Assembly: GCA_035529075.1 (NCBI GenBank)
Contig: DATKXK010000012.1
Span: 1-64,000 of the forward strand
Direction: 5' to 3'
Source: Acidobacteriota bacterium
Lineage (GTDB): Bacteria > Zixibacteria > MSB-5A5 > GN15 > FEB-12
DNA length: 64,000 nt
Positions 5,665 through 14,275 of this stretch are shown piece by piece; the first letter of the stretch is position 1; the number at the start of each line of letters is the position of its first letter. The position numbers were made by a program, and so were the translations under genes. A model generated the notes under the pieces. It saw only the letters and a program-made list of their open reading frames with translations, searched no databases and had not been told where the DNA came from.

Positions 5665-5895
5665 ATGCAAATTCAAAAGAAAGAACCGTCGTCAAAAGAC
5701 GATCTCGCAACCGAGATTGCCAAAACATTTCAGGAGGCACACCGCACCGAATTGTACCGGTACATTTTCCAAAGGCACGATGAGTCGACCATCAGAAAAG
5801 CTTTTGAGGAAACCACCAAAGTACCGGTCAGCAAAATCAGGAAGTCGAAGTCTGCCTTATTCTTTTATCTCCTGAACAAATATGCGGAAAAATAA
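5665..5895 (+). CDS. small protein of unknown function, overlapping the RuvC-like gene
   Basis: This 76-residue protein is lysine-rich at both ends and predicted helical (DDLATEIAKTFQEAHRTELY...STIRKAFEETTKVP). Its stop lies 14 nt inside the RuvC-like gene, so the two are translationally coupled and the product may be a partner of that nuclease. I do not recognise a family. The pattern of a helix pair followed by KVPVSKIRKSKSALFFYLLNKY looks like a small DNA-binding or adaptor fold, but that is a guess. Confidence 0.6.
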   Translation: MQIQKKEPSSKDDLATEIAKTFQEAHRTELYRYIFQRHDESTIRKAFEETTKVPVSKIRKSKSALFFYLLNKYAEK

Positions 5896-6418
5896 AATAA
5901 AAATCCTGGCAATTGATCCCGGAACCAGGCACATGGGATTCGCTTCTTTCGAAGGAACAGAGCTTGTCGATTACGGAGTCAAGACTATCAGACAAGGCTC
6001 GGATGTAGTAATTCTCACGCACCTTGAGGAGATTATCAGTCGCCTGATGAAAGAGAAGAAACCGGATTATCTCGCTCTGGAACGAAATACATTTTCTCAA
6101 ATCAAACAGAACTTTCGGTTAACGCTGGGTATCTCGAAAATGAAGTATATCGCCAAGAAGCTTGGTGTGCTGGTCTACGAATATGACCCCAGAACGATCC
6201 GCAAGGAGATATGCAATGACGGAAATGCCAGTAAAATCCGGGTCGCCCAGACGATTGTGATCTCGTTCGATGAACTGAAAGTGTATCTCCAGTCGGACAA
6301 AAAATGGGTCCTGAGATATAATCTGAACTTACTCGACGCTGTTGCAATCGGCTTAACCTTCATTCGCCAGAATATCAGCAGTGCCCGATCAACCCGCAAC
6401 TGGCTATTGGCCAGATAA
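5882..6418 (+). CDS. RuvC-like Holliday-junction resolvase family nuclease
   Basis: This 178-residue protein is close in length to RuvC. It has the RNase H-fold acidic set: D12 in ILAIDPGTRHMGFA, E67 in DYLALERNTF, and D152 in NLLDAVAIGLTF. An Asn (N149) sits three residues before D152, where RuvC usually has Asp or His. Such enzymes cut four-way or branched DNA with bound Mg2+. Chromosomal RuvC sits with ruvA/ruvB; here it lies in a mobile element behind an unknown small protein, so it more likely resolves the element's own recombination or replication intermediates. It lacks HNH and bridge-helix parts, so it is not an IscB/Cas9-type effector by itself. A zinc-ribbon gene and a large structured RNA-like region follow directly. 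Confidence 0.75.
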   Translation: MRKNKIKILAIDPGTRHMGFASFEGTELVDYGVKTIRQGSDVVILTHLEEIISRLMKEKKPDYLALERNTFSQIKQNFRLTLGISKMKYIAKKLGVLVYEYDPRTIRKEICNDGNASKIRVAQTIVISFDELKVYLQSDKKWVLRYNLNLLDAVAIGLTFIRQNISSARSTRNWLLAR

Positions 6419-6499
6419 TTGTGTATCTGACCAGATAGATGTTCATCTTGACAGCCCGAAACACATGTAACCCTAACCATAGGCTAATTGTAAATATCT

Positions 6500-6637
6500 A
6501 TGAGTGTTAATTTAAGAAGACGACCTTTTGGAAAGGAAAAAATCCATGTTGGTTTACCGTCAAAATGCCGAATCTGCAAACAGAAGCTTAAATTCGGCAA
6601 ACTATGCTATTACTGTAAGAAACGACGAACATCGTAA
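6500..6637 (+). CDS. 45-residue zinc-ribbon protein
   Basis: The frame ATG 6500 to TAA 6635-6637 encodes a basic peptide of 45 residues. It has two Cys pairs, CRIC (23-26) and CYYC (36-39), ten residues apart: a minimal zinc knuckle or ribbon. The ends are rich in Arg and Lys (NLRRRPFGKEK and CKKRRTS), which suits nucleic-acid binding. It lies between the RuvC-like gene and the structured RNA region on the same strand. There is no strong ribosome binding site. The four spaced cysteines and basic charge argue that it is real. Function unknown. Confidence 0.6.
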   Translation: MSVNLRRRPFGKEKIHVGLPSKCRICKQKLKFGKLCYYCKKRRTS

Positions 6638-6651
6638 GCTCCTTGAAAACA

Positions 6652-7173
6652 ATTTCAATCGGTGATTGAAATACGACCACTTGCGTCGTGGTCGTTAAAG
6701 ATAAGACGCCCCCTCGTCGGTCTGGTTCACTCCATCACTTTTCCCTTGCCAGAAGCACTAAAATTATGCTTCTTGAGAGTAGAAATGATATATTTTCATT
6801 TCTACTTTCGACAACACGTAAGGTGTTGTGAGGTAAGGGGAACGTGATGTCGCTCTCCGCCCGACTTCGCTCCCTTCCCTTGGCTCTCTGCCTAGTCTGC
6901 TTCTACCGTTAACGACGACGGATGTGCTGGTGAAACAAATCCGAAGCAGACCAGGAACCGGGAGAGCCATCGGCTTCGCCGGAAACAATGAATTGTTTCC
7001 TTACTCGGGTTTGCCCCGCATCTACATGTCAGCGGAGGGGCAAACCGAAGCGAGCGAAGTCGGGCGGACACGAATCGTCAGCCAAAAACCAGTATCCTGC
7101 GGATTTCGGTTTTTGGGACGAGTTCGGCCTCCGACGAGGGGGCGTCTAAGATAAAGATTCCGGCAAGCCGGAA
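6652..7173 (+). ncRNA. candidate large structured RNA (about 520 nt)
   Basis: The region has no credible protein gene but folds by eye into a nested architecture. Two side-by-side hairpins (6652-6672, 6673-6695) precede a perfect 17-bp closing helix (6704-6720 with 7131-7147). Inside it, helix II (6733-6750 with 6832-6849) closes a junction with three hairpins (6751-6773, 6775-6809, 6811-6829). Helix III (6856-6877 with 7047-7068) encloses helix IV (6881-6903 with 6943-6969) and hairpins at 6981-7000 and 7008-7046. A bulged hairpin spans 7071-7126. A last hairpin (7158-7173) sits before the next gene. About 140 pairs cover over 60 percent of 6704-7147. Four G-U wobbles read as pairs on the plus strand against one A-C mismatch, which favours plus-strand RNA. 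A DNA origin or transfer region is the main alternative. Confidence 0.65.
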
Positions 7174-7190
7174 ACGGGGATTACAAGAAG

Positions 7191-8294
7191 ATGACCAAAC
7201 CCACCCAAAAGAAACGACTCTCACGATATGTCCCGAATAAAGGGGCTTTCCCTGATTTGGTTTTGAGAGACCGGGATTTCATGATCCTCAGGTTGGTCTA
7301 TGACCATCGGTTCTTAAGTAGTGAGTTGCTCTGGCAACTGTTGCAGACAGATAGCCAGTCCCGCGCCGTTTCATATTCCGTTGGCTCGGACGGCAAGAAA
7401 CGTCCCACAAGCCACGGATTTGGACCACAGGCGTTGTCCAAGCGGCTAAAACAGCTTTTCAACGCTCGGTACCTGGAACGGCATTACATTACCGATCAGC
7501 CGATGGGCAGAGGGCATGGCTCGCCGCGAGCCATTTACGGTCTGGGACCGGCATGCCCGAAGATTCTCCAAGAAAGGCTCGATATTCCGCCTAGAATTAC
7601 TCAGCGGATTATCGAGAGCAACAAGGTCAAATCTCCGTTCTTAAGGCACGCTTTGGAAGTGGCTGCATTTCGAGCGATTCTTGAACTGGCCTGCCAACGG
7701 CACGAAGACAAGTTCAAGCTGCTTTTCTGGGAGCAGGGCGATTCCATCAGGGACTCTGTAATCGGAGTCAATGAAAAGGGCCAAGACGAACGGTTTCCGG
7801 TTCACGCAGATGCTTTTTTCGGTTTGGAAGTTATCGGTGAAGGCAAAACGCATTTTTTCTTGGAAGTCGATCGGGGAACCGAACCAATCGTGTCGTCAAA
7901 GCAACGCACCGACATAAGGCGGAAACTTATTGGATACCGGCTGTATCGTAAATCGAAGAAATTCCCAAAACGGTACGCGTACCGGCAGCTTCCAAATGGA
8001 CAAATTGTCGGAATCGACGCGTGTGTCGACCGCTTTATTGAAGACCGTCAGATGATTACCGGCTTTCAGGTTCTTTTTGTAACCCCCGGAGCAGTCAAAC
8101 CGGACAAACGCCTGTCGGGACGCATCGCGAGCATATTTGCGGAATTTCCGGCTCTGGGGAAGTTTTTCGTAACGAATTCGCTGTTTTGGTTCACTCCACC
8201 GGAATCATTCAGCATTAAGGAACCGGAATCGATATTTTCCAAATGCTGGATCACGCCGAACCCGCAAAACGACCTGATGAGCATGGTGGAATAA
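7191..8294 (+). CDS. replication-relaxation family protein
   Basis: This 367-residue protein matches the replication-relaxation family (PF13814). It has an N-terminal winged-helix region (about residues 25-110: RDFMILRLVYDHRFLSSELL...LSKRLKQLFNARYLERHYI) and a C-terminal alpha/beta part (about 150-300) with FFLEVDRGTEPI and a basic stretch. Family members are encoded by plasmids and integrative conjugative elements, often near a coupling ATPase, and are thought to take part in replication or mobilisation. Two heavily base-paired regions flank this gene (6652-7173 and 8301-8450), possible targets or RNA partners. The ATG follows a weak ribosome binding site (ACAAGAAG). Confidence 0.75.
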   Translation: MTKPTQKKRLSRYVPNKGAFPDLVLRDRDFMILRLVYDHRFLSSELLWQLLQTDSQSRAVSYSVGSDGKKRPTSHGFGPQALSKRLKQLFNARYLERHYITDQPMGRGHGSPRAIYGLGPACPKILQERLDIPPRITQRIIESNKVKSPFLRHALEVAAFRAILELACQRHEDKFKLLFWEQGDSIRDSVIGVNEKGQDERFPVHADAFFGLEVIGEGKTHFFLEVDRGTEPIVSSKQRTDIRRKLIGYRLYRKSKKFPKRYAYRQLPNGQIVGIDACVDRFIEDRQMITGFQVLFVTPGAVKPDKRLSGRIASIFAEFPALGKFFVTNSLFWFTPPESFSIKEPESIFSKCWITPNPQNDLMSMVE

Positions 8295-10911: not shown

Positions 10912-12690
10912 ATGGAACGAGGATTTAATATCGGTCAGAATACGCTGAACGGCAGACAACAGATAATTGATTATGACGATATGTTCCTACATTGGCTCAT
11001 CGTGGGCGGAACCGGCAGGGGCAAGAGCAAAATGCTGGAATTGCGGATACGGTATCATCTTGATAATAATCACGGGTTGATACTGCTCGATCCACACGGC
11101 TCACTCTACGACGACTTACTGGCGTATGTGACGGTTGCGGGCTATCGTAATCGTGTCGTTTTAATCAATCCCAATGATAATGAAAACTCAGTCGGCTTAA
11201 ATTTCCTATCGCCAAATGGCATGGACGTGTCGGCGCACGCTTCACAGGTAATGAAGGCAATTGCGAAAGTGTTCGGAGAAGCGGAAGGTGAAACAAAACC
11301 GAGATTGGAACGCTGGCAACGCAACCTTCTCATGTCTTTGATTGAGGCGAATCTGACGTTGGCGGACATGCTCGATTTCCTGTCGGTCTCAAGCTCACTC
11401 TATCGGGAATCGGTTCTGGATAATGTTCAAAATAACTATGTCAAAAGAGAGTGGCAGGGTTTCGACGCAATTACCAAACGGTCGGAAAAGGAGAATTTAA
11501 TCGAAGCTCCGTTGAATCGAGCCGCGAAGATGATTCTCTCAGACCCTATCAGACGCATTATCGGGCAAAGGGAATCGACCATCGATATTGGCGAAGCTAT
11601 CGAGAAGGGACGGATTATTCTGGTCAACCTGGCACCCCTGAAAGTTTCCAGAGAGTGCCAGCAGATTCTGGGGATTCTCTTGGTTGACCAGATTATAAAC
11701 TACGCTTTCCAACGAACCAAACGGCAGGCGAGAAAGCCGTTTTTCGTTATTGCCGATGAAGCTGCTGAGCTGACTTCCAACGACCTTCCATATTCGCTTC
11801 AGGCACTTCGCAAATTCGGAATTTACTTCACACTTTGCTATCAAACACTGACTCAGATCAAACGCATCCCCGGATACTTCGAAAACGTCATGACCAACTG
11901 TGATGTAAAGGTAGCGTTCAAGTCGAGCAGGCAGGACAGCGAAGAATTGGTCGGTGAACTGTTTGCCGGTCAGATACATGGAGACAAAATCAAGGATGAA
12001 ATCCATCACACGCTTTTGACCCCTCATGAGACGGTTCGAGAGGTAGTAAGTAGCGGAACGTCAACTTCCCGAACAAAAGGCGAGGTGAGTACCGAAGGTA
12101 CTTCCGACAGTTATGGGGGCGGTTCGGGTTCATCAAATTCATTCGGTTCGGGAAGTGCGAATCATCTTATTCCTGCCGATGGCTTTTTGTATCCGATGGA
12201 TGTTTATTCAATGACCAATTCAGAGTCATTCGGTCGCGCTTCGAATGATTTTTCTATGTCGTCATCCGGTTCCTCTTCAAGTTTCAGTGAGACTTTGAGC
12301 AACAGCGAATCGGAATCCAGCAGCAAATCCATCGTGCCGTTTTATGAGTTTATGCGAGAGCAGGAATTGTCGAGCCGTCAGTTTTACTCGATTGAAGAGA
12401 TTAAGGAGCAATATATAGCATGGGTTATGTGCCAACCCCAGCGACACGCCCAAATCAAGCTGAAAGACGACAATACCATGCCGGTATTTATCGCTTATGT
12501 CGATGAGGTTCGGGTACGAGAAAAAGACTGTCAAAAGGTGGTCGCCCGCTCCAATGAAAAGTATGCGTTACCGGCAGCCACCGTTGACAAGCTTATCGAA
12601 GAACGAAGATTGCAAATCGTTCAGAGAGAATCTACGGTCATTGACGTAACCCACGAAGAGGAAGAAATCGTAAACAGCCGTTGGCAATAG
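10912..12690 (+). CDS. VirD4/TraG-like DNA-transfer ATPase
   Basis: This 592-residue protein has a Walker A at residues 32-39 (GGTGRGKS), then LLDPHGSLYDDLL, and a Walker B around 276-284 (FFVIADEAAEL) followed by a SLQALRKFGIYFTLCYQTL arginine-finger region, the order seen in VirD4/TraG/HerA-type motor ATPases. It would pump DNA for conjugation or segregation. There is no N-terminal membrane anchor; the small membrane protein at 10086 might supply one. Residues about 380-480 are a low-complexity Ser/Gly-rich insert, unusual for the family. No relaxase or mating-pair gene is visible, so the element is probably mobilisable rather than self-transmissible. Confidence 0.8.
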   Translation: MERGFNIGQNTLNGRQQIIDYDDMFLHWLIVGGTGRGKSKMLELRIRYHLDNNHGLILLDPHGSLYDDLLAYVTVAGYRNRVVLINPNDNENSVGLNFLSPNGMDVSAHASQVMKAIAKVFGEAEGETKPRLERWQRNLLMSLIEANLTLADMLDFLSVSSSLYRESVLDNVQNNYVKREWQGFDAITKRSEKENLIEAPLNRAAKMILSDPIRRIIGQRESTIDIGEAIEKGRIILVNLAPLKVSRECQQILGILLVDQIINYAFQRTKRQARKPFFVIADEAAELTSNDLPYSLQALRKFGIYFTLCYQTLTQIKRIPGYFENVMTNCDVKVAFKSSRQDSEELVGELFAGQIHGDKIKDEIHHTLLTPHETVREVVSSGTSTSRTKGEVSTEGTSDSYGGGSGSSNSFGSGSANHLIPADGFLYPMDVYSMTNSESFGRASNDFSMSSSGSSSSFSETLSNSESESSSKSIVPFYEFMREQELSSRQFYSIEEIKEQYIAWVMCQPQRHAQIKLKDDNTMPVFIAYVDEVRVREKDCQKVVARSNEKYALPAATVDKLIEERRLQIVQRESTVIDVTHEEEEIVNSRWQ

Positions 12691-12928: not shown

Positions 12929-13041
12929 GCGGTATGCTCGCAACCGTTTACCACAATCACGAAACCAATCCGTCAGTCTTGGCACTGCCGGATATGGTTC
13001 GATTTATTCAATCTGCCACACAGAAAGGAGGTGAAAGCGAA

Positions 13042-14198
13042 TTGGCAAAAGGAAGCGTTGTGCAACGCTCTGGAAATTGGTATGCGGTTTATCGGGACGG
13101 AGGAACCCAGAAATGGGAACGAGCTGGCGGTAGCAAAAGAACCGCAGAGAAGCTCTTGGCAAAAAGGATGAATCAGATCAATGCCGGAACTTATCAGGAG
13201 TTTGAGAAGATTCTCTTCGAAGAGTATTCGGCAAAATGGTTGTCTGACTATGCCAAAATCTCTGTGAAAGCATCTACTTACAACAGCTACGAAACCATCG
13301 TGAGGCTTCACTTGAATCCTCGTTTTGGTAAGCAGTTCTTGCATCGGATATCGACGTCCGACATTCAGAAGTTCGTATCTGAAAAGATTACGAAAGAAAA
13401 GCTGACTCCGAAATCCGTTGTAAACTTTTTGGTGCCTCTTAAGGAAATGTTCAAGCATGCCGTTGCTTGGGGATTTATCAAACGTGACCCTTCACTGTAT
13501 GTGAAGCGTCCCCGTGTCGAATTGGAAGAGATGGATTTTTTCACACCCGAAGAAATTCGACTTTTCCTTGATAATGTCAATCCAAACCATTACCCGCTGT
13601 TTTTGACAGCCGTAATGACTGGCATGCGACGCGGAGAGCTTTTGGCTTTGCAGTGGGTCGATATTGATTGGAACTCCAATCAAATATCGGTCAGACGTTC
13701 GATCTATCGAGGAGAATTCGTCAATCCGAAATCGAAGAATTCAATTCGACGGATTGTTATTACTCCAATACTTCGTCAGGCATTTGAACAGCATCGTTTA
13801 CTTGGAAGAAAATCCGAATTGGGTTTGATATTCTCCAATGAAAACGGGTTTCCCCTTAATCCCGAAAACCTAATCAAGCGGGAGTTTCATTCCGCACTGG
13901 ACAGAGCAGGCTTGCGCCGGATACGCTTCCATGATCTCCGGCACTCTTACGCATCACTGTTAATCTCTCAAGGAGAGAACATTAAATTTATCCAGTCTCA
14001 ACTCGGTCATTCGTCGGCAAAAACGACTCTTGATCGCTACGGACATTTAATGCCGAACCTTGAAAACGATGCGGCTCGGAGATTAGACAAAACAGTTTTC
14101 GGAAATTTTGTTAGAAAACTGTTAGAAAATCCGGTTTCTGAAGGTATTTCCCCAAAAAAAGGAACCCCCGAAGTTGTTGAACTTCAGGGGCTTAAGCT

Positions 14199-14220
<22 letters not shown>
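13042..14220 (+). CDS. int: tyrosine site-specific integrase
   Basis: The 392-residue product has an N-terminal arm-binding region, a SAM-like core-binding domain (about residues 60-150) and a C-terminal catalytic domain. That domain carries Arg in TGMRRGELLAL, HDLRHSYASLL (H-x-x-R), and LGHSSAKTTLDRYGHL (H and the nucleophile Tyr). The start is set at TTG 13042 because a perfect AAGGAGGTGA lies 7 nt upstream; the in-frame ATG at 12934 has no such site. The last codons run into the 3' end of a tRNA-fMet gene on the other strand, so the attachment core overlaps the end of int. The 3' coding part also contains the tRNA's terminator, read antisense. Confidence 0.9.
14154..14190 (-). terminator. 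intrinsic terminator of tRNA-fMet, inside the integrase 3' end
   Basis: On the minus strand, CCCCTGAAGTT and AACTTCGGGG form a stem with one mismatch and a CAAC loop, followed by TTCC and seven Ts (14154-14160). It lies just downstream of the tRNA. It is also the last part of the integrase coding sequence, so the integrated element supplies the terminator. Confidence 0.7.

Positions 14221-14275
<55 letters not shown>

Follow-up and report, generated by a model that had tools for sequence, protein, structure and literature searches.

A large, conserved structured element upstream of a MOBC-family relaxase gene in Zixibacteria

GOLLD, ROOL, OLE and HEARO are RNAs of about 0.5 kb with many conserved helices, some of them carried on mobile elements. 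The single-strand origin (sso) of rolling-circle plasmids, which is much smaller and simpler, is a structured, strand-specific, noncoding region near the initiator or relaxase gene. Among integrative mobilizable elements (IMEs), Salmonella Genomic Island 1 (SGI1) requires for its transfer a self-encoded sgm-sRNA from its mobilization module (PMC9299015). PF13814 represents the MOBC relaxase family, whose members in streptococcal IMEs are accompanied by a VirD4 coupling protein (PMC5357655). These relaxases have PD-(D/E)XK nucleases as relatives, and the relaxase binding site of pAD1, the MOBC prototype, consists of five direct repeats (PMC12857230).

The window analyzed here (64,000 nucleotides of contig DATKXK010000012.1, assembly GCA_035529075.1) contains, at 6652-7173, one copy of a conserved multi-helix element that is selected for its fold. 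The element is genuine, new, large and structured, and is absent from Rfam. Like GOLLD, ROOL, OLE and HEARO it spans about 0.5 kb and has many conserved helices, but its gene neighborhood is different and the covariance models of these four RNAs give no match. With the sso it shares a structured, noncoding character and a position near a relaxase gene, the sso being far smaller and simpler. The closest functional precedent is the SGI1 sgm-sRNA, a several-hundred-base RNA in an IME mobilization module near a relaxase-type gene and oriT; SGI1 uses the tyrosine-recombinase-like MpsA (PMC9299015), whereas the element described here lies beside a MOBC-family relaxase gene. As in the MOBC systems (pAD1 TraX, CloDF13 MobC; PMC12857230, PMC5357655), a PF13814 relaxase is accompanied by a VirD4-type coupling protein, a combination comparable to streptococcal IME class 8. 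Unlike the pAD1 oriT, however, the region is large and folded and lacks direct repeats, with no direct-repeat family found in 6400-7250.

A conserved fold absent from Rfam

Folding of 6640-7190 yields minimum free energies of -270.5 kcal/mol for the plus strand and -265.9 kcal/mol for the minus strand, against approximately -169 ± 6 for dinucleotide shuffles (z = -15.0 and -16.3, respectively), and none of 100 shuffles is equally stable. Folding with DNA parameters gives the same picture (z ∼ -16). The true intergenic gap runs from the zinc-ribbon stop codon to the start of the relaxase gene at 7191 (6638-7190), and 6652-7173 contains no convincing gene, its open reading frames being at most 76 aa long and overlapping the helices. 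An earlier note, made from the sequence, had described a large, highly paired region without a convincing protein gene; the comparison with shuffled controls and the short reading frames bear this out, the 17-bp outer helix and the inner helices lie where that note had placed them, and at least seven hairpins are present.

Structurally, the fold comprises an outer helix (P1) that closes P2, P3 and P4 (Table 1). P1 is present in all 11 complete copies of the element, including a distant one (L053). The stem base of the middle P2 hairpin (AGTAGAA/TTCTACTTT) is conserved in sequence, and the base of the P3 helix (CCGCCCGACT/AGTCGGGCGG) is nearly invariant. P4 retains a conserved 2-nt bulge, carries a 4-pair extension (7094-7097/7101-7104) and is joined at its base, in some relatives, by an extra hairpin, P5. 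Invariant bases cluster in P1, at the base of the middle P2 hairpin, in P3, at the P3/P4 joint and in P4/P1; they are 120-190 nt apart in the linear sequence and are brought together at the junction by the fold.

Table 1. Coordinates of the structural features and neighboring genes in the window
Feature	Position	Strand	Basis or detail
RuvC-like Holliday-junction resolvase	5882-6418	+	PF02075, E = 4e-8; profile matches solved RuvC
Zinc-ribbon protein, 45 aa	6500-6637	+	Translation; ends just before the structure
Flanking hairpin B (ATTTCAATC/GATTGAAAT)	6652-6672		Fold
Flanking hairpin A (ACGACCAC/GTGGTCGT)	6673-6695		Fold and homologues; conserved with compensatory change
P1, 5' strand (perfect 17-bp outer helix)	6704-6720		Pairs with 7131-7147
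P2 domain	6733-6849		Helix 6733-6750/6832-6849, 17 pairs, one mismatch
P2 hairpins (three)	6751-6773, 6774-6810, 6811-6829		Fold
P3 domain	6856-7068		Helix 6856-6877/7047-7068, 21 pairs, one mismatch
P3 arms (three)	6881-6969, 6972-7000, 7008-7046		Fold
P4	7071-7126		Helix 7071-7090/7108-7126, 18 pairs with bulge
P1, 3' strand	7131-7147		Pairs with 6704-6720
Hairpin beside the relaxase ribosome-binding region	7156-7175		Terminator-like on the minus strand
Long Replic_Relax protein (MOBC-family relaxase)	7191-8294	+	PF13814, E = 4e-17, above curated cut-off
VirD4/TraD-type coupling ATPase	10912-12690	+	PF10412, PF12696
Tyrosine integrase	12934-14220	+	Ends inside tRNA-Met 14199-14275 (attachment site)

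Selection for the fold is evident in a segment-anchored alignment of ten copies, for which RNAalifold gives consensus energies of -253.4 (minus) and -240.8 (plus), about half of the energy coming from covariation. An R-scape-style per-pair test has no power at ten sequences, and an aggregate tree-based test was used instead, in which substitutions were re-placed randomly along the tree 200 times while their number and kind per branch were kept. At the 113 pairs that the predictions for the two strands share, 88.3% of the pairings are Watson-Crick, compared with 47.5 ± 2.0% in the simulations (maximum 0.528). Because this alignment also served to predict the structure, the test favors the structure over the controls, but an effect this large far exceeds what we would expect from such a bias. 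The covariation in homologues whose absence the earlier note had named as a refutation is present: 52 pairs occur in at least two Watson-Crick types, against 20 ± 4.2 in the simulations (maximum 35). Sliding the partners by 1-3 columns lowers the Watson-Crick fraction to 0.26-0.37, and pairing is maintained in copies that have diverged to about 50-55% identity.

At the gathering score, Rfam 15 identifies only tRNA in the window, and a permissive Rfam search returns no credible match there; eight loci of relatives give none either. The earlier description of the region as an undescribed structure holds, with no match to any Rfam 15 family, GOLLD, ROOL, OLE and HEARO included. A relationship to HEARO, the omega RNA of IscB, was considered and rejected, the neighboring protein being a plain RuvC of 178 aa (PF02075 only) and not an IscB with RuvC and HNH domains.

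Gene module, host elements and distribution

The structure is embedded in a gene module with the order HTH protein, 76-aa protein, RuvC-like protein, zinc ribbon, structure and Replic_Relax protein, followed by a TPR regulator, a VirD4/TraD-type ATPase, a small possible excisionase and a tyrosine integrase. D12, E67 and D152 of the RuvC-like protein are invariant in 11 members, and the zinc-ribbon pattern C..C...CYYCxKRRTS is conserved in 10 intergenic regions. The relaxase also matches the PHROG family 'replication initiation by nicking', and its PF13814 assignment together with the VirD4-type coupling protein gives the composition of a MOBC module. An AlphaFold model of the relaxase built from ten sequences (pLDDT 69) resembles winged helices in its N-terminal part (residues 22-133; Z ∼10 over 77 residues); at this pLDDT, fold searches matched the N-terminal winged helix only, with no match to a PD-(D/E)XK nuclease.

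The end of tRNA-Met is repeated on another contig of the assembly (G000:C4:52949-52996; 48 bp, 90%), so that the element in the window probably spans a contig break. In a relative (L044/L191, G029:C1:81769-108653), a complete element of 26.8 kb extends from tRNA-Met to a 63-bp repeat and has genes for restriction-modification, an SNF2/PLD helicase, and SMC-like and ArdC-like proteins as cargo; most of the large cargo genes that were searched are of defense type (restriction-modification, helicase and anti-restriction), and no VirB-type gene is among them. An integrase, a tRNA attachment site with repeats, a relaxase and the lack of a mating-pair T4SS of their own are the features of integrative mobilizable elements, and by this gene content the host elements of the structure look like mobilizable elements. 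At 878-2417 of the window, a gene for a CBASS-like oligonucleotide cyclase is followed by one for a 2TM effector, and the mobile element that holds the structure probably carries this pair as cargo.

DNA and protein searches covered 132 Zixibacterial genomes. The covariance model R1 detects 10 loci in 8 of them and misses L053 (in G012), a distant complete copy in which the outer helix and the P3 base helix are plain. In total there are 11 complete copies and two partial ones, namely L052 (the 5' half, at a contig end) and L056 (a remnant), with a length of about 0.45-0.54 kb across copies. Every complete copy is followed immediately by a gene for the long Replic_Relax relaxase, and 10 of the 11 lie between this gene and that for RuvC, in most cases with the zinc ribbon. 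The exception is L053, with the order RuvC, short Replic_Relax gene, structure, long relaxase; a second round of searching with its relaxase retrieved no additional members. Two matches were found among genome contigs, both Zixibacterial. Plasmids and phages yielded no match (blastn, and tblastn with the relaxase), and viral contigs no homologue (RuvC and relaxase profiles, three DNA patterns).

The same RuvC family also occurs with a short Replic_Relax paralogue in a second group of elements (L100-L105) in G039, G062, G063 and G087, with three copies in G039. Between RuvC and the short paralogue there is no room for the structure in L100, L101 and L103-L105, which indicates that the structure goes with the long relaxase and not with RuvC. 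L105 contains one over-stable stretch, but its excess stability is modest (z -4.5) and its structure is not of the kind described here.

Several candidates on viral contigs were discarded. The RuvC matches L057-L059 are remote, the pattern matches L120-L122 are due to chance, and L106-L119 are simple AT-rich hairpins; R1 finds no element in L106-L122. The hairpins of L106-L119 share the stem base AAAGTAGAAT/ATTCTACTTT and have paired variable tips, with the rest of the element absent, and are probably unrelated to it.

Separately, some assemblies end in or beside the structure (end of G003:C20 and start of G003:C21, start of G085:C27, end of G004:C317), and counts from draft genomes are therefore probably too low.

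Two copies from the same genome, L046 and L047 (both G095), differ by 11% in the structure, 14% in RuvC and 37% in the relaxase. The relaxase and the element therefore need not co-evolve closely, and the sequence differences suggest an exchange of modules at the border between structure and relaxase. Comparison of the distance matrix of the structure with those of RuvC, relaxase and HTH protein was not decisive.

Strand and nature of the functional molecule

The earlier note had inferred a plus-strand molecule from wobble pairs. For the copy in the window this argument is roughly right, with three G.T against two A.C within helices (plus letters), but it fails across the family. In Watson-Crick-only folds common to both strands, isolated helix mismatches in the 11 copies number 18 A.C against 4 G.T in plus letters (14 against 5 under slightly different rules; about 12 against 4 with shared events merged by eye). 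In RNA controls from related genomes, read on the sense strand, the A.C:G.T ratio is 7:17 for RNase P and 0:8 for tmRNA. Of the two strands, the minus strand has the better fold in 9 of 11 copies; in the controls it is the sense strand, in 25 of 26 cases for RNase P and 22 of 22 for tmRNA. Unpaired bases of the plus strand are rich in T and C (T.336, A.254, C.231, G.179), while those of the minus strand are A- and G-rich and C-poor, like those of RNase P. The mismatches, the loop composition and the relative stability of the two strands thus tend toward the minus strand, with exceptions among the lineages, and the plus-strand inference of the note is probably wrong.

Terminator-like signals show a similar tendency. 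On the zinc-ribbon side, the minus strand has terminator-like hairpins with T-rich tails in L048, L049, L050, L051 and L052, and the site of flanking hairpin B holds a minus-strand hairpin with a T-rich tail in several members; on the plus strand, a terminator-like hairpin occurs on this side only in L053. The minus strand carries another terminator-like hairpin on the relaxase side, where a minus-strand RNA would have to start, and no conserved promoter better than those in shuffles was found on either strand. The strand bias is similar in size to that of the RNA controls, with no minus preference in L048 and in the window's own cluster. In the aligned pairs, the two wobble types are about equally scarce (24 against 32 of 1101 cells, 2-3%), and structured RNAs usually have more G-U pairs than this. 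The minus strand is thus favored, rather than established, as the functional strand.

The explanation that we tentatively place first is that the minus strand gives rise to an RNA of about 0.5 kb with a role in the mobilization or replication of the mobile elements. The functional molecule would be the minus strand, most likely as RNA, with the P1/P3/P4 junction as the conserved core and outer arms that vary. At one further remove, it may take part when the excised element is mobilized or replicated, possibly in recruitment of the relaxase, in control of nicking or in control of relaxase or replication gene expression, with the dependence of SGI1 transfer on its self-encoded sgm-sRNA as the precedent. 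The weakest step of this explanation is the choice of RNA over single-stranded DNA; of the earlier reading as a structured RNA, the real, selected structure stands, and the RNA nature is the less certain part. That the element represents a new class of large minus-strand RNA forming an essential component of the IME transfer or replication machinery appears doubtful at present.

The main rival, which we regard as somewhat unlikely, is a single-stranded DNA that works in folded form, either as a large origin of transfer or as a site of single-strand initiation. After nicking by the relaxase, the displaced or transferred strand would fold and be recognized by the relaxase, RuvC, the coupling protein or an RNA polymerase or primase. 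The region sits between RuvC and the MOBC relaxase, where a transfer origin is expected, its folds with DNA parameters are equally extreme, wobble pairs are rare on both strands, and the minus strand has hairpin triloops of the GNA type, which are favored in DNA. Against this, relaxase-binding direct repeats of the pAD1 type are absent, the asymmetry in wobbles and loops resembles that of the RNA controls, and the terminator-like tails lie on one strand. Transfer origins of this size and complexity are also not known.

A plus-strand leader RNA controlling the relaxase mRNA, for example by occluding the ribosome-binding site until a protein binds, would account for the position of the structure immediately upstream of the relaxase start codon and in the same direction, with the last hairpin (7156-7175) near that start; it is nevertheless improbable, as the strand statistics point to the minus strand and the size and closed P1 domain exceed what a leader needs. 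Least probable is a cruciform in double-stranded DNA that the RuvC-like resolvase of the element would bind or use as its own built-in substrate. The RuvC-like gene, with its catalytic residues intact, adjoins the structure in nearly all members, but the P1 arms are 410 bp apart, which makes extrusion from duplex DNA unfavorable, elements with the same RuvC and a short relaxase have no structure between those genes, and the strand asymmetry speaks against a symmetric duplex role.

Mobile elements have few large structured RNAs, most of them without an assigned function. For the element described here, the accompanying gene module (RuvC, zinc ribbon, MOBC relaxase and coupling protein) is defined, and this opens its function to experiment. 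Should it prove to be an RNA needed for mobilization, it would, together with the SGI1 sgm-sRNA, suggest that DNA-transfer machines contain RNA parts more often than has been assumed; should it act as DNA, the relaxase locus would harbor a folded single-strand device of unusual size.
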